DNA of 57,208 nucleotides from NCBI GenBank assembly GCA_031257095.1, contig JAIRPI010000021.1:1-57208 (forward strand), read 5' to 3'. The first letter of the stretch is position 1. Each line of letters starts with the position of its first letter. The stretch comes from Mycoplasmataceae bacterium. Its GTDB lineage: Bacteria; Bacillota_I; Bacilli_A; Mycoplasmatales; Mycoplasmoidaceae. Shown piece after piece: positions 691 to 50,984 of the stretch. The notes under the pieces were generated by a model that was not told the DNA's origin, ran no database searches, and worked only from the letters and a program-made list of their open reading frames with translations. The position numbers and the translations under genes are program-made.

Positions 691-944
691 AAAACACCGC
701 ACCAAAATTTACCCAATATTGCAGCTTATTGATATGTATGGTGTGTAGTTTAATCACCTAGGCACTATTAACACCAATCTAGGATGCTTAAAGGATAACC
801 TATATTTTTAAACAAGTGTGCAAGCAATCGTATGCAGAAATTGATTTAGATATTATGTATTTGTTAAGATATTGTTTCTTAGTGCGCTTAATCAATGTTT
901 AACTTTTTATTTCTTATCAAAGTTGTTATAATATATATATATAT
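691..944. other. AT-rich intergenic region with promoter of the first surface protein
   Basis: No ORF with plausible coding content is seen on either strand. At the right end TATAAT (927-932) is followed by an alternating AT run that leads directly into ATG 945, so the transcript would have a leader of about six bases at most. The AT dinucleotide run could itself vary in length. Nothing else is recognised. Confidence 0.4.
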
Positions 945-2716
945 ATGAGAACATTTGCAGCCTTTGTTTTATCATTATCTTCGTTCGGTTCTTTTGTTGC
1001 TATAACCCCCCCATTGTACAAAATGCACAAAAAAATAATGTAGCAGCAATTAATATAAATAGTATTTTTGGTACTGTTGATGGTAAAAAAGATATGGGTA
1101 ATTTTGCTCCTGGTACTAATCTCAATGCTGGTGATGTGATATCTTTTTTAAACGACATAGCCAAGACAACATCATATCCTTGAGTTATTAACGATTTAAT
1201 TGTTGGCGACCCTCAAGGAACATCACCAATTGAAAGAAATATTACAGTAAAACAGAATTCTAGCGAATTCGATGGTTCGTTTAATGTAGTATATACTGTT
1301 GGAAGTAAAGTTGATATTGATACCGTCCTATCTAACAAGATTTTGTACGATACAAACAACACTTCAACATTTTTATCTAACCCATCCGCTTCAAAAGTTA
1401 TTCAACGAATTGGAAGTCTAAACCCTAATGTTAGACTCAACCAAATTGATATTGACCCTAGCACTTTTGGTTATGATAGTGGAACAGATTCGTTTAAAGT
1501 AAAAATTGTTCCAACACCTTGATCTTCCGTTTATACGGGTTCTGCTTGAGTTTATTGGAAATCTGCTTTAGTAGTTCAATTTTCATCATGACCAACATCT
1601 ACTGTGTATGGTTATTCAAATTGTTCTGTTACTCTTTCTTTGAGTAAAACTACTACCGGTTCAGTTAGTTATACGTTTGATGATGGTTCTACAAGTAACA
1701 CATCATTCCAAATTAGCGGTACAACTTTAACACTAAAAACTGGACAGAGCGCTAACACGACTGCTTACACTTGCAAAGTTAAAGCAACCATTTCTAATGA
1801 TCCTACTTATGGAACAGGCTCCACATCTTCGAGCGCTACTTCTGTTACGATTGGTAAGGCCTCTATGTCGTTAGGCGATATTACTGTTGATGGTAGTACA
1901 ACTGCTAAAAATTTAACAGTTGGTTATGCAACTCAAAACTATACATTAGCTATTAGTAGTGGTTTACCTACGGTTGGTACTAACAGCATTACTTATAGTA
2001 TTGATAGTACGACTTCGTATACAGGACAGTCCCCTGCGAGTAATTTATCTATCACTAATAATCAACTAATTTTGACAAACGGGTTGCGGGCATGTTCTTT
2101 TAGATTAACTATTAAAGCAACTGTGGTAAATAGCTCTGGCAATTATTTAAATGGTTCTGTTTCCACTGGTATTATTTTTTATGTTAAAGGTAAAATAAAT
2201 AATACACCATTTACTACATATGATATGACCTATGCTAGTTGCTCATCTAATAGTGAATATCCAAATAGTTCATCTCCAAATGCTAACTTTGCTGCATGGA
2301 GAGCTTTCGATGACAATAGTAACCCAACTTTTTGGAGCACAGCAAGTGGTTCATGCCCTGATGGCGCAACGGCAGGAGCTTATACTCTTCCAAATACAAT
2401 TTATTTAAAAATAACATTTCCATATACTCAGCTTTTAACAGAATATAGTATTACGCCAAGACCAGCTACAGACCAATGAAATATTTACTCTTGAACTATT
2501 CAAGAATCAACGAACCCATCAGCTACTAGCGGAACGGTTATAAGCACAGTGTCAAGTTACACATGGAGTGGAAATGCTGCGCAAACTTGAACTGCTACAA
2601 CGACGTCTCAGAATATTCGTTGTTTTATTCTTGCAGTTACTGCTGTGAAAATAAATACCGCACACTCTGGTGAAAAATGATTTGGAATCGGCGATTGAAC
2701 ACTTACTGGTTATTAA
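945..2716 (+). CDS. phase-variable surface protein with Ig-like and F5/8C-like domains (currently OFF)
   Basis: ATG 945 opens a hydrophobic secretion signal (MRTFAAFVLSLSSFGSFVAI) that runs into a C7 tract at 1006-1012 and ends at TAG 1041-1043 after 32 codons. One extra C (C8) joins it to a long open frame from 1016 to 2716, with TGA as Trp throughout. That gives a secreted protein of about 590 residues. The middle has two similar beta-rich modules (each with a KATxxN...G.S pattern), like bacterial Ig-like repeats. The last ~170 residues (NFAAWRAFDDNSNPTFW, later WNIYSW, ending FGIGDWTLTGY) look like a galactose-binding/F5/8 type C fold. A host-glycan adhesin is an inference. The frame break at a homopolymer suggests a slippage switch; fixed mutation or sequencing error are the alternatives. 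Confidence 0.75.
1006..1012 (+). repeat. poly-C tract (C7) in the signal peptide, OFF length
   Basis: Seven C residues at codons 21-23 of the reading frame from ATG 945. C7 leads to a stop nine codons after the tract, while C8 opens the frame through to 2716. It is one of only three C runs of seven or more in the window; all three lie near the 5' end of an exported-protein gene. Confidence 0.8.
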
Positions 2717-2758
2717 TAATCATAAATAAACCCTGGCGTGTTGTGCTAATAGATTTGA

Positions 2759-3769
2759 TTATCACAATGACTTATGCATTTCTAAAATACCAAGAACGTT
2801 GCTAATTTTCTGCTTTTTCTTATTAATATGAATATATCCATTAAATGTCCCAATATATTGATGAAAATTAGTTTTGATTGCCCCAAACCCTCGTGATTTA
2901 ACATCTGCTTTTTCACCAAGGATAGAAAATGAAAGTTCTACTCTTTTATCATCAGTGTAAATTCTAATTGGTTTTGTTAAATCATTAGCGTTTCAATCAA
3001 ACATAATTCGTTTATAATGCTCACGTTCATTGTTAAACCATGTAGCATTTTCTCCATATAATTCGTTATTATTAAAAATAGCAAAATTAAATCCGTAAGT
3101 ATTTCCTTTGTCATGCCCGCCAGCACTAGCTCATAGTCAATTAGTATCACGGCGGAAAAAACCTCCAGAATAATCAATATTACATATGGTATTGTCGGGG
3201 TTCACAGTTATTGTCGCACCATCAACTTCAATTTTTATATTACGTAATTTTAATCCACAACGTTTCTGCGTAAATACTCAATGGTCAAAATCGGCGGGAT
3301 TAATTGTTCTTAGTGGTTTTTGTACTAGTCCTAATTCAACATCATACGATATATTAACATTATCTTTACAAGAAAAGTTACCTTTAATAAAATTTTCTTG
3401 TAAATTAGTTTGGTTATAGATGTTGAATTGGGGATTAGTGAAACTTATGATACTGTTATCAAAATCATTATTGAATTTAAATTTGCGACTAACGATTGTT
3501 TTTTCTCAATGTTTAACCATCCCCTTGTTTTTTTCAAAAACATAGCCAAAAAAACTTCGCGCTAAACCAATATCCACATATGCCAAACTAACAATGTGCT
3601 CAGTGCTAGCAAATGATAAGAAGCAAAATTTATGAAAACGGTTTTTAATATGAAATTTAGAAATTGGTTTACCTCAGAAATTTTTAAGTTGATAATCAAA
3701 CCAATTAAATTCTAATAAACAATCGTGAACGCCATAGGCTACGATATTATCATTAACTATTTTCTTCAT
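2759..3769 (-). CDS. DUF2804-like protein (336 aa)
   Basis: Complete ORF when TGA is Trp, starting MKKIVNDNIVAYGVHD. It overlaps the end of the alcohol dehydrogenase gene by 17 bases and is the last gene of the 6890-to-2759 operon. The central region reads DYSGGFFRRDTNWLWASAGG, followed by GFNFAIFNNNELYGEN and, later, SRGFGAIKTNFHQYIGTFNG. This layout resembles the DUF2804 family (lipocalin-like, uncharacterised). There is no signal peptide or membrane helix, so it is probably cytosolic. Function unknown; co-transcription with a lipase-like hydrolase and a dehydrogenase hints at a lipid or aldehyde substrate. The family assignment is from memory of the motif pattern. Confidence 0.7.
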
Positions 3770-5081
3770 ATTTAATGTTTTCAAATTTCCCTTCTATTAT
3801 ATTTTGATATATGTGCAATACTTCGCTTCGCGAAAATTGCACTGGATTAGATATTCCACAAAAATCGCGCATTGCTTTTTTGTTCATACTTTTAAGTTGT
3901 TGCTTAGTAATTGTTGGTTGAACATCTGTTAGTTTTGTTGGAATATCTAACTTACGTAAGAAATTTACAAGATAAGATAAAAAGATTTTAGCTTTCTCAA
4001 TTGAAGTTGGCATATTCCTACTAATATTTAAAAATTCACTAAGCTCACATAATTTAGTAATGACAATTTCATTATTAATTTCATAGTCTAGAACGTATGG
4101 AAGAATCAAGGCATTAGCTAATCCGTGTGGAGTGTTAAACGTTCCACTTACTGCGTGTGATAAAGAATGTACAAAGCCTAAAGAAGCACAATTAAAAGCG
4201 GAACCCGCCATAAACTCTGCATAGGCTAATTTTTCACGTGCTTCTATGTTACTAGGCTCCTTATAAATAATTGGTAAGTATTGTAATACCAATTGCAGCG
4301 TTCTTTTAGCATAAGTTTGGACGATAACGTTTTGCACTGGCGATAAATAAGCTTCAAGTGCATGGACAAGTGTGTCGACACCAACTCATGTTGATGGTTT
4401 TGGCGGTAGCCCAACCATGAGATTACTATCATCAATAATGACATGCGGCTGAATATTTTTATCAACCAACGTCATTTTTGTATGTGATTGTTCATCAGTA
4501 ATAACTGCAACATTAGTAGTGCCACTGCCCGTACCGGCAGTGGTATTAATCGCAATGATCGGCATTACTGGTGCGTGTTTAGTTACATTCAACCCTTGAT
4601 ATTTGCGCACTTCTTGACAATCATTAGACAATAAAAGGCAAGCTGCTTTCATCGCATCGTGGGCACTACCTCCACCAATAGATATTAGCGCATCACATTT
4701 TGATGCAAGATAGAAATTAGTTATTTCTTGCACAATTTTAATTGTGGGGTTTGGTAATACCCCTTCAAAAATAGCATATTGAATTTTCAATTTTTGTAAT
4801 TGATCAGTAACTTGTTTAACAAGGCCTGTTTTTGTTAAAACCGGGTCAGTAATAATTAAAGCATTAGAAAATTTTCATTTCTTAGCAATGATTGGAAATT
4901 GTTGCAGGCAATTATGGCCAATGAGGTTGAATGTATTATTTTGGTAAATGAAATCTTTTTGTTTTCACTCTTTAACCATTGCTATAGGTAAAGCATTAGC
5001 TCAACGAGTTTGCTTAATATACAACAACATCTTTCTGGTTGGCTTAGTTGATAATAAGGCAGTAAAAATTTGAAAAATCAT
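3753..5081 (-). CDS. iron-containing alcohol dehydrogenase
   Basis: 442-residue NAD(P)H-dependent alcohol/aldehyde dehydrogenase of the Fe-ADH superfamily. Visible motifs are GGGSAHDAMKA (nucleotide binding), TTAGTGSGTTNVAVITD, LVHALEAYLSP and the metal-site helix FVHSLSHAVSGTFNTPHG. It is about 50 residues longer than typical members because of an N-terminal extension with three TGA-coded Trp. The start ATG 5081 overlaps the upstream stop by one base (TAATG) and has a strong AAGGAGG, which fixes the start. It probably reduces fermentation aldehydes or oxidises an alcohol such as butanol or propanediol; the substrate cannot be read from sequence. It sits in the operon of hydrolase, ADH-like protein, ADH and DUF2804-like protein. 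Confidence 0.9.
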
Positions 5082-5983
5082 TATTGTACCTCCTTGTTAA
5101 CTTCTGCTAGAAGTTCTTTATATTTCTCATTTTTTTCTAGCTCATCATTTATTTTTGTTAGCGAATCAAGTATCTGTTGTTTATCTATTTTATATTCGTT
5201 TAATGTTTGGGTAAGAATTTTTCTTTTTGTGCCAAACAATTCCTTGGCAATTGACAAAACATGGTGACAATAATAAACCAACCAATGATGAACGTTGTTG
5301 AAATCTTTGTTGTGATAATTCACAAGAATAGTGTTATATGCATTCTTCATTAATATATCAGCATGTGCTAAAGTAATATAAAGCTGTTTTTTAGTTCGAT
5401 TATTAATGTTGGTTTGTAATTGTTGATAAGCCGTTAGAAAATGAATCATACCTGAAATAGCACAATCGAAAATAAAATTATTATCTTCTTGACAATTTAA
5501 ACAAGATTGCAGCGCCAAACCTATATCAGCCATAAAATAAATTGTGTCATACATGTTAAATTCACGCTTTGGACTACATTCATTAAAAATTAAATTAGGA
5601 ATAACGTTGTTATTGATTCCAATTGCGTCATACGAAGACATTCTCGTTGGTAATTGCTCAATACAATATAGAGCACAATTGGAATCAATCATTGGTTTTA
5701 AAATACTATGTAGTTTGCTTGATCCATAACTAATAATTAAATCTATTTGCGCATCGATTTTTTGTTTATCTTCTAGTGTATTAAGCGCAATAATCGAAAC
5801 TTTACGAATTGGTGAAATTAATTGATTAATTAAGTGTATCAAGCTCCGTGGTGGTTTTATCGTGCTCGGTTCATAATAGCAAAAAACAATGTTTTTAAAG
5901 TGGTGTTCAATAATCGCACGATATATTTGCCGATAAGATTTTAAACCAACAATAAACTGGTCGGGGGTGACAAGATTAATCAT
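5081..5983 (-). CDS. divergent protein, possibly a degenerate Fe-ADH/G1PDH-like paralogue
   Basis: 300 residues, no signal peptide, and a charged C-terminal helix (KNEKYKELLAEVNKEVQ). I do not recognise a family by motif. The order of features follows an Fe-ADH fold: FIVGLKSYRQIYRAIIEHHF near the start, LIISYGSSKLHSILK where a normal enzyme has GGGSxxDxxK, and HHWLVYYCHHVLSIAKELFG where the metal-binding helix would be. Most catalytic and cofactor residues are changed, so a non-catalytic partner of the adjacent dehydrogenase is plausible. It lies 13 bases after the hydrolase gene and overlaps the ADH gene by one base. Low certainty on origin, good certainty that it is a gene. Confidence 0.55.
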   Translation of the reverse strand: MINLVTPDQFIVGLKSYRQIYRAIIEHHFKNIVFCYYEPSTIKPPRSLIHLINQLISPIRKVSIIALNTLEDKQKIDAQIDLIISYGSSKLHSILKPMIDSNCALYCIEQLPTRMSSYDAIGINNNVIPNLIFNECSPKREFNMYDTIYFMADIGLALQSCLNCQEDNNFIFDCAISGMIHFLTAYQQLQTNINNRTKKQLYITLAHADILMKNAYNTILVNYHNKDFNNVHHWLVYYCHHVLSIAKELFGTKRKILTQTLNEYKIDKQQILDSLTKINDELEKNEKYKELLAEVNKEVQ

Positions 5984-5996
5984 GTAAAAATTATAG

Positions 5997-6890
5997 TTAA
6001 CTATTAATAATAGTTTTTAAATCACGAATATACTTAAAGGTTTCAGGAATCGGTGTAACAAAAAAATCGTGAAAGCATTTTTTATATATATATAATCCAG
6101 TCAATTTGTTAGTTTTTTGTAATTTATTTCGTAATTTCTCTAGACCCACTAATGCTTCATCGTAAGTACCATAAAATAGATATGTGTGTGGAAGGATAGA
6201 GAAATCAGAAAAGTATGGACTCACATATGGGTCATTGAGACTAGTTTTACCAGCATAGATTTCAATTGCTGCTTCTAATCCAGCTTTAGGGAAGATATAT
6301 TTACCCGAAGGGTTTTGTGGTTTATATCCAACAAGATTACAATCATCTAATGGATTAACTAATAGAAGTCTTTTTGGTAATGGCAATTTATTTTCTTTTA
6401 ATAATGTTGGCGCTAACAAAGCTAACCCACCACCACTCGAATCACCACCAATAGAAATATCTTCTGGTTTGTGTCGTTCTAATATTTTTTTATAACATTG
6501 CACTACACAATCATATAACTCTGTACGATTAATGTTTTTCCCATCGTGCTTATAAACTGGTACGATAGGACAATATAATGTAATACCTAGCTTACGTACT
6601 AAGCGAATAAAGTAGGCATAATGGATAGTCCCAACTTCCATCACATATGCTGAACCATTAAAATAATAAAAAACATTATTGTTTTGTTTTGTATTATTTT
6701 TTGGTGCAAAACAAAACATTTTTCATCCATTAACCTCAATCACTGAAAATTTACATTTATTTTTAACTGTTGGTAATGGATCAGCAAATTTTCAAGCATC
6801 TAAAAATTTAAGAAAAGCCTCTTTGCTCGATCACCCAGCATTAAATATTTTTTTAAATTTATGTTGAGCAATAATCCTTAATATACTCAT
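5997..6890 (-). CDS. alpha/beta hydrolase, hormone-sensitive-lipase type
   Basis: 297 residues once TGA Trp codons are read. The nucleophile elbow is GGDSSGGGLALL (GDSAGG class). The usual oxyanion motif HGG near the N-terminus appears as YYFNGSAYV. Asp lies in YGTYDEALVG and the catalytic His in KKCFHDFF, near the C-terminus. This places it in the HSL-like esterase/lipase family, acting on acyl esters; the exact substrate is unknown. The start ATG 6890 is favoured because a TATAAT box lies eight bases before it. It is the first gene of a four-gene operon. The altered oxyanion motif is unusual and could change specificity or activity. Confidence 0.8.
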
Positions 6891-6898
6891 ATTTTCTC

Positions 6899-6904
6899 AT
6901 TATA
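6899..6904 (-). promoter_or_regulatory. -10 box of the hydrolase-ADH operon
   Basis: TATAAT on the minus strand, eight bases before ATG 6890. Transcription would start at about the start codon, so the message is expected to be leaderless or nearly so. Confidence 0.55.
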
Positions 6905-6982
6905 GTAAATGCGCTAGGTTTATAAGATGTTGAAATGTTACTTAAGACAAAGTGTAGTATTAAAAAATATTTGTATTTTGTA

Positions 6983-6988
6983 TATAAT
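6983..6988 (+). promoter_or_regulatory. likely -10 box of the tRNA cluster
   Basis: TATAAT about 70 bases before tRNA-Ser, in the only AT-rich promoter-like stretch upstream of the cluster. No convincing -35 is visible. The transcript would carry a 5' extension that contains AACAACAACTGTTGTT just before the tRNA. Confidence 0.4.
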
Positions 6989-7060
6989 ACTACAACGTTA
7001 AAACGGTGACAGGGTTTTTATATTCTTTCATAAAAGCATCGATTAACAACAACTGTTGTT

Positions 7061-7151
7061 GGACAATTACCCAAGTGGTTGAAGGGTTCGGTCTTGAAAA
7101 CCGAGAGGCGATGCAAGTCGCGCGGGGGTTCGAATCCCTCATTGTCCGCCA
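7061..7151 (+). tRNA. tRNA-Ser (UGA)
   Basis: 91 bases with the long variable arm of class II tRNAs. Acceptor GGACAAT pairs with ATTGTCC, the anticodon loop is CTTGAAA (anticodon TGA), the T-loop TTCGAAT is standard and CCA is encoded. First of five closely spaced tRNAs. Confidence 0.95.
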
Positions 7152-7154
7152 CAT

Positions 7155-7231
7155 CGCGGAGTAGAGCAGCTAGTTAGCTCATCAGGCTCATAATCTGAGG
7201 GTCGTTGGTGCAAATCCAACCTCCGCAACCA
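7155..7231 (+). tRNA. initiator tRNA-fMet (CAU)
   Basis: 77 bases, anticodon loop CTCATAA. Acceptor CGCGGAG faces CTCCGCA, leaving the C1-A72 mismatch that marks bacterial initiator tRNAs; CCA is encoded. The three anticodon-stem pairs next to the loop read A-T, G-C, G-T instead of the usual three G-C pairs, an altered initiator signature. Confidence 0.92.
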
Positions 7232-7232
7232 C

Positions 7233-7251
7233 TGGGTAAATTTTTTACCCA
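7233..7251 (+). other. hairpin between tRNA-fMet and tRNA-Asp
   Basis: TGGGTAAA and TTTACCCA form an 8-bp stem with a 3-base loop. No T-run follows, so it is not a clear terminator; a processing element is possible. Confidence 0.3.
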
Positions 7252-7295
7252 CCTGAGTATAGGTTATACTCCATGGATAGGTCCCATGTAAAAAT

Positions 7296-7370
7296 GGTCT
7301 CATGGTATAGCGACTATTATTTCCCCCTGTCACGGGGAAGATACGGGTTTGACTCCCGTTGAGACCGCCA
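7296..7370 (+). tRNA. tRNA-Asp (GUC)
   Basis: 75 bases. Acceptor GGTCTCA pairs with TGAGACC, anticodon loop CTGTCAC, T-loop TTTGACT, encoded CCA. Confidence 0.93.
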
Positions 7371-7372
7371 AT

Positions 7373-7449
7373 GGCCAATTGGTGAAGCGACTCAACACAC
7401 CGCCCTTTCACGGCGGCATACACGGGTTTGAATCCCGTATTGGTCACCA
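7373..7449 (+). tRNA. tRNA-Glu (UUC)
   Basis: 77 bases. Acceptor GGCCAAT pairs with ATTGGTC with one G-T pair, anticodon loop CTTTCAC, T-loop TTTGAAT, encoded CCA. Two bases separate it from tRNA-Asp. Confidence 0.93.
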
Positions 7450-7451
7450 TT

Positions 7452-7527
7452 GGAGTGTTAGCTCAGCCGGGAGAGCATCTGCCTTACAAGCAGGAGGTCG
7501 GGGGTTCGATCCCCTCACACTCCACCA
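7452..7527 (+). tRNA. tRNA-Val (UAC)
   Basis: 76 bases. Acceptor GGAGTGT pairs with ACACTCC, anticodon loop CTTACAA, T-loop TTCGATC, encoded CCA. Last tRNA of the five-gene cluster. Confidence 0.95.
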
Positions 7528-7580
7528 AAATTACTATATTCATAAATTTTTTTAATAAGTCTTATTAATAATAAAACGCG

Positions 7581-7586
7581 TATAAT
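7581..7586 (+). promoter_or_regulatory. -10 box of the second surface protein
   Basis: TATAAT exactly six bases before ATG 7593, with an alternating AT run in between. The first transcribed base should be the A of the start codon or next to it, giving a leaderless mRNA. Confidence 0.6.
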
Positions 7587-7592
7587 ATATAT

Positions 7593-8744
7593 ATGAACAA
7601 TATAAATACCCCCCCCACAAAACATTCTAGTGGTTTAAGAAAAAATAAAATATTATTGGGTGTATTTATCCCAGTAGGGTTATTATCTTTTTGTGCGGCG
7701 GGTGTGGGTGTGGGTTATGCTATTGCCCCAAAAAACCAAGCATCTATACCAACTCTTGATGCTACTGCTTCAAAATTAACACTTTCAGGGATAGGAGATG
7801 AAGTGACTTTTAATATTAGTTGAGATAATTTTAAAACTAAGGATATAACAATATATGTTGAGCGCGATGAAAACATAGCACAATATTTTGAACCAGGCGC
7901 AGATGGTCAATCATTACTATCTGTCGAAACACCCAATGGGTGATCTAAGTCTTATGATCAATATGTATTCAAAGTTACAACAACAAAGGGTACAACTGCT
8001 ATCACAATTAGGCAAAATAAGCTAAGTAGTGAAAGCCAAATAGAAACGTTTTTACCATTTAAAGTGAGCGGTGGAGGTGTCAATCAAATCAGCGTAGAAC
8101 GGGCGGTTTCATGTTGTTTAATAAATACATTAACTTCTCCATTGATTGACCCACTAGACGTTAGAAATATAATCATTAAGACTACGGATATATCGCAATC
8201 ATATAATCTTGATACTTTTAAAACACGTTTACCAACTAAGTTCACGCAGTTACCATCGTTGACAACTGGGAAAATAAATTTTGCTGCTAACGCAGAAAAT
8301 AGTACCGTTTTAGACACTTTGCACATTTACGATAACGCCGAATCCTTTGCGGCATTACTCGTTGCTGACATGTACCTTTGTTCAGATAATACTGATTATG
8401 TTAACAACGGTATTAATCTATTTCATATTGGTAACAATATAAAAAATGACCCTAACGACCGAGCGGAGTTCGATACTACAATTCAGCAGTTTGGAAATTT
8501 AACTCAAGGTGAAATTGTGGGGGATATCTTTGTCGGTTCAAAACAAAATTTTTCAAATACCTGAGGCATAACATGAGCTTACCACATGAAAAGCCCTAAT
8601 GGACAACGATCAGAATGAGAAACCGAAACAAATGTGACAGGTTATGCAACTGGTCTTAAGAAGCCTGCATGACAAACCAATGTTAAATCTATATTAAAAG
8701 TAATTTATGATGGTGTTGTTGACACTTGGCCTACTGATTGATAA
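7593..8744 (+). CDS. phase-variable membrane-anchored surface protein (currently ON)
   Basis: 383 residues in a frame that is open only because the C tract at 7609-7616 is C8. Residues 1-18 are short and basic, followed by one membrane helix (about 20-45, ILLGVFIPVGLLSFCAAGVGVGY without a clear lipobox), so the rest should be displayed outside. The exported part is beta-rich and Ser/Thr/Asn-rich with several TGA Trp codons. I recognise no domain. Residues ~50-150 (EVTFNISWDNF, VFKVTTTKGTTAITIRQN) look like an Ig-like module. It is flanked by tRNA genes, a common insertion context, but no repeats or integrase are seen. Function unknown; a variable surface antigen is an inference from the tract. 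Confidence 0.8.
7609..7616 (+). repeat. poly-C tract (C8) at codons 6-8, ON length
   Basis: Eight C residues in the context AAATA-C8-A, encoding Thr-Pro-Pro at codons 6-8. The first 15 bases of the message precede the tract, so slippage here would stop translation almost at once. The third surface gene uses the same AAATA-Cn context. Confidence 0.8.
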
Positions 8745-8777
8745 CACAATTTTAAACACATACAATATAATTAAGTT

Positions 8778-8851
8778 AGGGTTTTAGTTCAATGGAAGAA
8801 TAATGGTCTCCAAAACCACTGATGTGGGTTCAATTCCTACAAACCCTGCCA
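8778..8851 (+). tRNA. tRNA-Trp (CCA)
   Basis: 74 bases. Acceptor AGGGTTT pairs with AAACCCT, anticodon loop CTCCAAA, encoded GCCA 3' end. This tRNA decodes UGG; the UCA-anticodon tRNA needed for the many UGA codons must be elsewhere in the genome. Confidence 0.9.
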
Positions 8852-9001
8852 GAATAGATTTTTAATAACATAATCATTCAAACATTAATAGATAATAAAA
8901 TATCTCTTTATGTTGATTTTTATAACAAATATTCATATTTTTACAATTTATAATTGATTTTTAGCATTTTTTGTATAATATCCACATAAGAGGGAGAAAA
9001 A

Positions 9002-9859
9002 ATGTTTAATCAAATGGAATTCACAAAAAAGTTAATAAACTTTAGAAAAGCTAAAAATACATCGCAAACTCAACTTGCCGAGATGTTAGGCATCACACCG
9101 CAAGCAATAAGCAGGTGAGAAACGGGTGAGTCATTACCTGATTTAACACAGCTAGGCAAACTAGCGGACATATTGGGTATTCAAATTAATGATTTCTTTA
9201 GTGATTCATCAAACAATGAAGACACTAATGATAATCAAAATAATAAAGCTGTTAAATTAAGATTTAACGATTTTAAAAATGCAGATTTTTCTAATATGAC
9301 ATTATCAAACAAAGATTTTTCATGAAGCAGTATTAAACAAACTAAGTATGATAATTCGCATTTGGAAAATATTATTTTTAAGGGTGTGCATATGAAGGAA
9401 ACAACCTTTAATAATGCGCATTTAGAAAAATGTGAATATTCACGTAATCACCTAAATAAGAATAAGTTTGTTAGTGCGATTATCAATAATTCTAATTTTT
9501 ATCATAACAATTTAAATTCATTATTATTTAGTGATTGTGATATTTCACAAGGAATGTGGAGGTGAAATAATGTTAATGTCCAATTTGATAATGCAAAATT
9601 AACAAAAGTTCAATTTGATCGAAATAACTTTGCTCATTGTGTTTTTAATAATACACTACTAGAAAATTGTGAGATTACCGCTTGTAATTTCCGCAAAGTT
9701 ACATTTACCAATTGTGAATTAAAGAACACATCATTCCAAGCTTCACATTGTCGTGGCATTACTTTTGTTAATTGCAAGATTGATCAGTTTACGAGAAACT
9801 TTCTTGTGTCATGCGGAGCAAAACTAACAAATAATGATACTTTACATGAAAGTAATTAA
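9002..9859 (+). CDS. HTH (Xre/Cro)-pentapeptide repeat fusion protein
   Basis: 285 residues with TGA as Trp. Residues ~8-62 are a Cro/C1-type helix-turn-helix (LINFRKAKNTSQTQLAEMLG, ITPQAISRWETGESLPDLTQ). After an Asn/Asp linker, residues ~85-275 are a quadrilateral beta-helix of pentapeptide-like repeats with the central Phe/Leu every five residues (FSNMT, LSNKD, FSWSS, FNNAH, LEKCE). The start is ATG 9002 with a good GAGGGAG ribosome site. A DNA-binding head on a DNA-mimic-like beta-helix suggests a regulator or gyrase-interacting protein, but that is inference. It stands alone between tRNA-Trp and convergent hpt. Confidence 0.85.
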
Positions 9860-9868
9860 TATAAGAAT

Positions 9869-10426
9869 TTATTTAACTGATTTCTCTAAGGCTTTGCTAT
9901 TCATCAAAGCAATATAAGGTAAATTACGATATAACTCTAAATAATCTAAACCATAACCGATAATAAATTCATCTTTTGTATGATCGGTCGTGAAACATAT
10001 ATAGTCTGGTTTAATTAGCCCTTTATTATTGCTACGCAATAATAGACAAGCAACTTTAAGCGACTTACATCCTCTTGCTTTTAATATTTTAACAAGCTTG
10101 GTGAGTGTTCTACCAGTGTCAACAATATCATCAACAATGATAATATCACGGCCACGAATGTTTGTACGTAAATCAGTAACGATTTTAATTGTTTTTTGTT
10201 GTTTTGTGCCATGATAACTAGAAACAACCATAAAATCCATTATTGGATTACATGTTAATTTAAGGAATAAACTAGTGTAAAAGGGTATACACCCTTTTAG
10301 TAGTGCAATTACTATTGGTTTTTTATTTTGATAATCATGATTAATTTTTTGCGCTAGCGTTTTAACTCGTTGTTCAATTCGCTTTTCTGTGTAAAGTATT
10401 TTATGTTTGTGGTTTGGTTGTGGCAT
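9869..10426 (-). CDS. hpt: hypoxanthine(-guanine) phosphoribosyltransferase
   Basis: 185 residues of purine salvage enzyme. The PRPP-binding loop IIIVDDIVDTGRTL and upstream IVIALLKGCIPFYTSLFLKL are diagnostic; FIIGYGLDYLELYRNLPYIA closes the base-binding site. It converts hypoxanthine/guanine plus PRPP to IMP/GMP in the cytosol. TATAAT at 10,438-10,433 lies exactly six bases before ATG 10,426, so the mRNA is expected to be leaderless. Divergent from the third surface protein gene, convergent with the HTH-pentapeptide gene. IMP made here would feed PurA and PurB, both encoded in this window. Confidence 0.95.
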   Translation of the reverse strand: MPQPNHKHKILYTEKRIEQRVKTLAQKINHDYQNKKPIVIALLKGCIPFYTSLFLKLTCNPIMDFMVVSSYHGTKQQKTIKIVTDLRTNIRGRDIIIVDDIVDTGRTLTKLVKILKARGCKSLKVACLLLRSNNKGLIKPDYICFTTDHTKDEFIIGYGLDYLELYRNLPYIALMNSKALEKSVK

Positions 10427-10519
10427 ATAAAGATTATAAAATGAAAATTATTTGCTGCGCATAATATGCGATTTTACTTTGTTTAGTAAATTACATATAT
10501 AATTAAAAAAATAAACATT

Positions 10520-11937
10520 ATGACAAGTCAAACAGAAAACATGAATAATACAAAACAACAAACCAAAAAGAAAAAGTTATTATTTATATTAATTCCTTTA
10601 TCTTTAATTATTGTTGCTTTAGCTCTTTTTTTGGGTTTTTGATATGGTTGTAAATCAAATACCCCCCCATAGCTATAAAACAATCTACTATTAGTGAAAA
10701 AAATGGTAAATATAAAGTTGATGCAGGTACACGAATTTGACGAAATAACGATAGTAGTTCAGTTTATGGTAATGATTTTATCGATTTAAAAGCGTTTAGT
10801 AACGATCACAAACATTGTTCTAATTTCGTAGTAGAGGGCACAATCGATTTTGGTTTCTTAATTGATTTTGATATGAATTGCACTTTAAATGGTTCAGCGA
10901 ATGAATTAATGCAGTGAAGTGGAAATGGTGCGGGAGTTGGTGTATTGGTTGGTAATAAAGAACAACCAAAAAACTTTGTTAGTTATACAGGATATTTAGA
11001 TATCAAAAATTCTATGACATTTAATATCGTTTCCCTAGATAACCCAACATGAGGTGTTTGGTTTGGTTCAACCGCTTTTAAGTCAACGCAAATTATTAAT
11101 GGTACTTATACGCTTGAGTCTAAAACTCGTCCATGTGGTGGTGTATGTTGCGATAAAGGTTTAAGTGGCAATACCATTGTAGATGGTGTATTTAATATTA
11201 AATCTGACGGTGATGATGCTTATGGGTTATATATGAGATATTTGCATGATGGTTCTAACTTAGATGTTAATGGAGTGTTTAATATTTTCTCTAGTGGTTG
11301 TTCATATGGCATTAACGTTGATACAAGCGAGCCTTCTTCTAAACAGACAATTAATGGAATTTTTACTATAAAAGCTAATAGTCATGCGTATGGTATTTAT
11401 TTTTGAGACGACAGTATTAATAGTTATTTTTATACAGATGGTGTTTTTGGTATTGTGAGTGTGAACGGCAATGCATCTGGTGTTACTTTAAATAAGGGAG
11501 TACAATCAGATTTTAAAGGTAGTATTGGCGGTATGTTTGAAATTGAATCACAAAACAAAAGTAATAGTGTTATCTTTCCACAACGACCAGTTATTACGTT
11601 TGATTTAATTATGGCTGAAGCTCAGTTTTTTGCCAAAAAAACTGATAATGCTTATACTACTTTACCAATAGGTGTTGAGTATAAATGAAACGGTACGCCA
11701 ATTACCGTCTCAACTACAAGCAATCCTACAGTTGGAGATAGTTCACTTGTGTCGGAATTGATATCCGATGACGCAACAAATCCAAATTTTTCTATCCAAA
11801 CAATTAAAGAAGCAATGAATACGAATAAATATGATTATAATTCCGCATGTTCAAATGCATTAAAAAACTATATCAATAATAAAGAATGCCCAACCGTTGC
11901 TAAAGAATGGTTAGAGAAAATATATAACCAAATCTAA
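10520..11937 (+). CDS. phase-variable membrane-anchored beta-helix surface protein (currently OFF)
   Basis: ATG 10,520 starts a 20-residue polar head, then a membrane helix (LLFILIPLSLIIVALALFLG) and WYGCKSN. A C7 tract at 10,662-10,668 then puts TAG in frame at 10,670, leaving 50 residues. With C8 the frame opens from 10,669 to 11,937, for about 470 residues in total. The exported part repeats a unit of the type V-x-G-x-F-x-I-x-S with AYGxY (VDGVFNIKSDGDDAYGLY, VNGVFNIFSSGCSYGIN, INGIFTIKANSHAYGIY), as in right-handed beta-helix surface proteins. The C-terminus is a short helical tail. TATAAT at 10,498-10,503 gives a leader of about ten bases. The function is unknown; a switched adhesin or antigen is inferred from architecture and tract. 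Confidence 0.75.
10662..10668 (+). repeat. poly-C tract (C7) just after the membrane anchor, OFF length
   Basis: Seven C residues in the context AAATA-C7-ATAG at codons 48-50. C7 ends in TAG directly after the tract; C8 gives Thr-Pro-Pro-Ile and a long open frame. Confidence 0.8.
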
Positions 11938-50669: not shown

Positions 50670-50984
50670 ATGAAGGAGAATAAAGAATATGAAATAACAA
50701 AATCAAGCAGAAACGACTGAATTGGTGTCACTTTTCAATGTCATATAATTAATAGAGGAGTTAATGTGGCACCAAAATGATTTAGAGAATTTGAAAAGAA
50801 GAATGATGCAAGGTGAGCAGAGAACGATGCTCGTTGAGCAAGGCAAGAAGAATTTAATAAATATGTTGGTGGTTTTATTAGGAAACAAGAAGAATTTAAC
50901 AAACGTGTTAGTGATTTTATTCAACAACAACTTGAGTTCAATAAACATGTAATAGATGTTTTTAAAAGAAACAACCTAAAATAA
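50670..50984 (+). CDS. small repeat-family protein, copy C (104 aa)
   Basis: 104 residues with TGA as Trp in four places. The head MKENKEYEITKSSRNDWIGV with FQCHIINRGVNVAPKWFREF is almost identical to copy B at 250-585. The middle has a duplicated (N)DARWA unit in place of one EFNK repeat, then the EFNKYVGGFI / EFNKRVSDFI repeats, and the end is FNKHVIDVFKRNNLK. Start ATG 50,670 with GGAGG nine bases upstream. Function unknown; heptad-like repeats suggest an oligomeric coiled coil. Repeat-number differences between copies point to rapid change by unit gain and loss. Confidence 0.8.

Follow-up and report, generated by a model that had tools for sequence, protein, structure and literature searches.

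Poly-C and poly-G tracts as putative slipped-strand switches of surface-protein genes in an uncultured mollicute

Contingency loci based on poly-G or poly-C runs occur in Campylobacter and Helicobacter. They have also been described in Neisseria (PMC5084427). As in the genome analysed here, the G/C runs of these three genera measure about 7-12 bases and belong to many surface or modification genes. The present genome nevertheless comes from an unrelated lineage, its mollicute genes are of a leaderless type, and the tract lies in a cytoplasmic tail, a signal peptide or the linker that follows the anchor. Within the mollicutes, phase variation by frameshifting at poly-A is known for vaa of Mycoplasma hominis and p78 of M. 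fermentans (cited in PMC2831843). These are surface genes with a homopolymer of 7 or 8 near the 5' end that sets ON or OFF by reading frame, like the genes considered below. However, they are single genes with poly-A, whereas about 16 unlike genes are served here by poly-C or poly-G and long A/T runs are depleted. Candidatus Mycoplasma girerdii carries tandem-repeat contingency genes throughout its genome, and length variants were seen in metagenome reads (PMC5476646). It resembles the present organism in being an uncultured mollicute with repeats genome-wide in BspA-like surface genes, many of them predicted to be OFF. Its repeats are mostly dinucleotides, with two variable homopolymers (one a G8 in a mod gene), whereas C/G homopolymers dominate here. 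Switching of mycoplasma surface proteins by homopolymer frameshifts is thus already known, as are repeat switches distributed over the genome of an uncultured mollicute; less expected is what the genus shows as a whole, in particular a putative leader attenuator present in many copies.

The window, that is the whole stretch of DNA analysed (57,208 bases), is contig C4 of an assembly denoted G000, which is fragmented into 27 contigs (664,759 bases, 83% complete). Loci in G000 are given below as contig and position. The A+T content of the window is 68%, and the occurrence of in-frame TGA within its open frames fits the mycoplasma code (TGA = Trp). No copies from the same or a near species were found for comparison of the tracts, the HPRT genes of the nearest genomes being at 50-59% identity.

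An earlier note on this DNA had pointed to three C runs as the sole C runs of at least seven in the window, near the 5' ends of genes for N-terminally membrane-targeted proteins. They lie just there (Table 1), none of the 57,208 bases belongs to any other C or G run of at least 7, and the next longest C/G runs are three of length 6. The Thr-Pro-Pro coding of all three tracts and the AAATA-Cn context of two were likewise found as described. The long frames, said in the note to be open only with C8, are open from the ATG at 945, 7593 and 10520 only at tract lengths of 2 mod 3, lengths 6 to 9 having been tried for the tracts of genes 2 and 3. Gene 2 is therefore ON at its assembly length and genes 1 and 3 are broken, hence OFF, which agrees with the one ON and two OFF copies noted before. 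Table 1 summarizes the three genes and the features around their starts.

Table 1 Tracts, candidate promoter elements and reading frames of the three poly-C genes in the window
Feature	Coordinates	Strand	Remarks
-10-like TATAAT, gene 1	927..932	+	ATG 12 nt downstream; no Shine-Dalgarno; read from sequence
(AT)8 repeat, gene 1, between -10 box and ATG	931..946	+	candidate second unstable tract
Switch gene 1	945..2716	+	590 aa; signal peptide and 567-aa open part; OFF in assembly
C7 tract (Thr-Pro-Pro), gene 1	1006..1012	+	codon 21, signal peptide end; open only at 2 mod 3
-10-like TATAAT, gene 2	7581..7586	+	ATG 6 nt downstream; leaderless layout; read from sequence
Switch gene 2	7593..8744	+	383-aa N-terminally anchored protein; ON in assembly
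C8 tract (Thr-Pro-Pro), gene 2	7609..7616	+	codon 6, ahead of membrane anchor
-10-like TATAAT, gene 3	10498..10503	+	ATG 16 nt downstream; read from sequence
Switch gene 3	10520..11937	+	472 aa; membrane anchor and 422-aa open part; OFF in assembly
C7 tract (Thr-Pro-Pro), gene 3	10662..10668	+	codon 48, directly past anchor

The position of the tract relative to the export signal is not equal among the three genes, and the promoter-spacer type of switch (vlhA with GAA, vmc with TA) was not found among the window C tracts, all of which sit inside the coding frame near its 5' end. The first part of gene 1 is similar to genes at C6:4270 and C3:17391. An (AT)n repeat comparable to the (AT)8 of gene 1 also precedes the switch gene at C14:24567. 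The first 45 residues of gene 2 show 69% and 58% identity to the switch genes at C5:76918 and C6:3010, respectively, and the mature parts differ between gene 2 and both of them; no relatives of gene 2 were found in viral contigs and plasmids. Relatives of gene 3 are present in G000 and in five other genomes of the genus. For its product a beta-helix-like middle part or repeat region was predicted (pLDDT mostly 57-86), with no significant PDB match, and structure prediction for gene 1 yielded no fold. In the Pfam search, genes 1 and 3 had no match and gene 2 a sub-threshold match only.

Two further loci of the window may be recorded. A gene at 9002-9859, between switch gene 2 and the HPRT gene, encodes a helix-turn-helix domain fused to pentapeptide repeats. 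A shared regulator coordinating the three genes was considered and rejected, as the genes have no common element but the tract and the helix-turn-helix gene is merely a neighbour. A small protein with 42-nt coiled-coil-like repeats is encoded at 250-585 and 50844-50930, and similar sequence begins at the very edge of the contig.

Across the whole of G000 there are 24 C/G runs of at least 7 bases, with a mode at 8 (five of length 7, 14 of length 8, four of length 9 and one of length 10), which are poly-C or poly-G on the coding strand. The search for such runs near the 5' ends of exported-protein genes, suggested in the earlier note, placed 16 of the 24 no deeper than codon 50 in genes for N-terminally hydrophobic (anchored) proteins or lipoproteins. 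Seven of these genes are ON (C4:7609, C14:24567, C14:48553, C17:1915, C6:3010, C6:4270 and C8:24997) and nine are OFF (C4:1006, C4:10662, C17:674, C21:30087, C22:38404, C5:76918, C5:108099, C5:131088 and C11:1349). The proposal of a coordinated poly-C set within 11 kb is not supported in this form: the tracts are spread over the genome, consist of C or G and lie mostly elsewhere, with 3 of 24 in the window, and each gene has its own tract, the phases of which look independent. A seventeenth tract (C3:17391), near codon 90 of a gene-1 relative with a signal peptide, is OFF. The remaining tracts lie in genes for a PAP2-like membrane protein and IF-2, in a degraded lipoprotein gene, in an alpha-L-fucosidase-like gene and in a GH16-like gene, and two more are situated deeper inside anchored or lipoprotein genes. 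Since 5 or 6 of the 24, including those of the IF-2, fucosidase-like and GH16-like genes, occur in intact genes at some distance from the 5' end, a tract by itself is no proof of a switch.

Besides the tract, the 16 switch genes have other traits in common. In 14 of them TATAAT lies 6-16 nt upstream of the ATG and no Shine-Dalgarno sequence is present, and for this reason most look leaderless or nearly so. The C tracts encode Thr-Pro-Pro, the G tracts usually Gly-Gly with adjoining Arg or Gly, and several of the products contain LRR/BspA-type repeats.

The three window tracts are more than chance. In 417 kb of the genome's own sequence, 19 C/G runs of at least 8 were observed against about 0.95 expected under a third-order Markov model, this sample taking in every tract region by design with a tract bias of at most 665/417. 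The counts for lengths 5 to 10 were 77, 13, 5, 14, 4 and 1, and the 14 runs of length 8 compare with 0.65 expected under the third-order model (first- and third-order models both give about 0.6). The stretches of the first 50 codons make up about 4% of sequence, so that about 1 of the 24 tracts would be expected there by area instead of 16, a figure obtained with a simple rule for hydrophobicity and from a sample partly enriched in tracts. A/T runs in the same 417 kb numbered 94 at length 8 and then only 3 at 9 or more, against about 82 expected; from this depletion it seems that the genome puts up with long unstable runs only if they are C/G. An A10 between dhaL-like and dhaM-like frames (C5:169163; L097 12163) is longer than any other A/T run sampled, and for it a frameshift, a slippage fusion or an assembly error is possible.

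It is very likely (probability about 0.88) that each tract is an independent slipped-strand translational contingency switch that sets a surface protein ON or OFF, so that the slipped-strand reading of the earlier note is the best supported one and is strengthened by the genome-wide pattern. A C or G run would slip by one base at replication. One phase of three would let the ribosome read the entire surface protein; the remaining two would bring it to a stop codon soon past the tract, leaving a cell without that protein. With about 16 to 18 such switches in genes scattered over the genome, whose products are N-terminally anchored proteins and lipoproteins unlike one another, a clonal population could hold many surface combinations. 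In keeping with this, about 3,290 codons past the tract in the nine OFF genes are free of stops. Among paralogues that have the tract at one and the same codon its length varies (G7 at C17:674, G8 at C17:1915 and C8:24997), and comparison of the OFF copy with ON paralogues gave dN below dS (0.17/0.22 and 0.21/0.40). These three features fit recent reversible switching as far as sequence can tell. Beyond them, we infer that the tracts slip in the living cell, that switching is reversible, that the proteins are exposed at the surface and that there is a benefit in host contact. A MutS or MutS_V domain was not found in G000, an assembly that is 83% complete.

Open frames in the OFF genes would also be expected if RNA polymerase or the ribosome slipped on the run, producing short and full-length proteins in constant proportion from DNA of a single length, and in principle either event could be favoured by a run of 7 or 8. 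Such recoding should keep the tract in one phase; nevertheless 7 of the 16 genes are in frame and 9 out of frame, paralogues differ at the same codon, and the C and G tracts showed no shared slip-site pattern. This explanation is considered improbable. Slightly less credit still is given to errors of assembly or consensus at C/G homopolymers that make intact genes appear broken. Some long-read data often contain errors at C/G runs, and the assembly is of a metagenome type and fragmented. An error of this kind, however, leaves unexplained the excess of runs with its mode at 8, their 5' placement in genes for anchored proteins and the near absence of A/T runs of 9 or more. In addition, about 490 A/T runs of at least 7 hardly break frames, the flagged cases being mostly neighbouring gene starts or overlaps and the dhaL/dhaM A10 an exception, and the error explanation is thereby weakened rather than closed. 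That the OFF copies are fixed pseudogenes is very improbable: remnants do occur in surface-gene families, and the C14:25212 locus looks degraded with lesions adjoining its G8 tract, but nine OFF genes lack any stop past the tract and paralogue divergence shows constraint.

Slipped-strand switching may not be confined to this genome. C/G runs of at least 7 number between 0 and 80 per genome in 36 genomes of the genus. In two of them (G027 and G020), G8-G9 tracts are located within lipoprotein signal peptides. In two others, G8-G10 tracts lie directly upstream of the -10 box of surface genes (G033: L119, L120, L071, L078 and L080; G018: L072 and L085), and the genes concerned in G033 and G018 are homologues of window genes 3 and 2. 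The latter arrangement suggests promoter-spacer switching.

A different arrangement recurs in four relatives, G027, G023, G024 and G020 (L059 3424-3560; L105-L116; L185-L220), in the form of a repeated leader element. TATAAT precedes a short ORF that contains G7-G11; a conserved hairpin and then an intrinsic terminator come next, and a ribosome site leads into a gene for a lipoprotein or anchored protein. Compensatory changes occur in 5 of the 6 pairs of the hairpin. A covariance model of the element (R1) found 40 copies in G024, 22 in G027, 15 in G023 and 6 in G020, together with one each in three more genomes; there was no R1 match in G000, the window's own genome, and outside the genus a search of 298 genomes of the order gave a single weak match. 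Of 46 leader copies examined, a count that leaves out one spurious pick, 43 have one tract phase, and no other, in which reading continues beyond the point where the terminator hairpin starts, and 13 are now in the read-through phase. An (AG)n/GA dinucleotide repeat replaces the G tract in copies of G020 (L222), G005 (L223) and G018 (L224). Many G027 leaders (among L105-L108, L110, L111 and L116) also have C8-C12 just upstream of the -10 box, and there the C run and the leader tract may provide two unstable tracts for one gene.

A comparable mechanism is known from the pil1 locus of Streptococcus gallolyticus, in which premature termination is averted when the leader peptide is longer (PMC3894217). 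As in pil1, the repeat of the relatives' element is in a leader ORF, one frame of which takes the ribosome past a terminator before a surface gene. The repeats of pil1 are GCAGA and its target is a pilus operon, whereas the element of the relatives has poly-G or (AG)n, with as many as 40 model matches in one genome. If the ribosome passes the terminator in a single tract phase only, slippage would turn transcription of the gene behind it on and off. The element, a lead from relatives that lies outside the window, appears to control surface-gene transcription. Taken together, it is fairly likely that slippage of C/G (and AG) tracts is a genus-wide means of surface control in which the tract moves among four sites, namely the cytoplasmic tail or linker, the signal peptide, the promoter spacer and the short leader ORF, and that the leader is a mobile-looking, multi-copy, phase-variable attenuator.

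This uncultured mollicute lineage probably varies its surface randomly through many independent C/G switches, in which case a consensus sequence cannot describe that surface. The species of the genus, with 0 to 80 tracts each, form a natural series in which to ask what causes contingency loci to be gained or lost. If the leader attenuator works as read here, it would extend a mechanism known from one Streptococcus pilus operon to a repeated, genome-wide control system.
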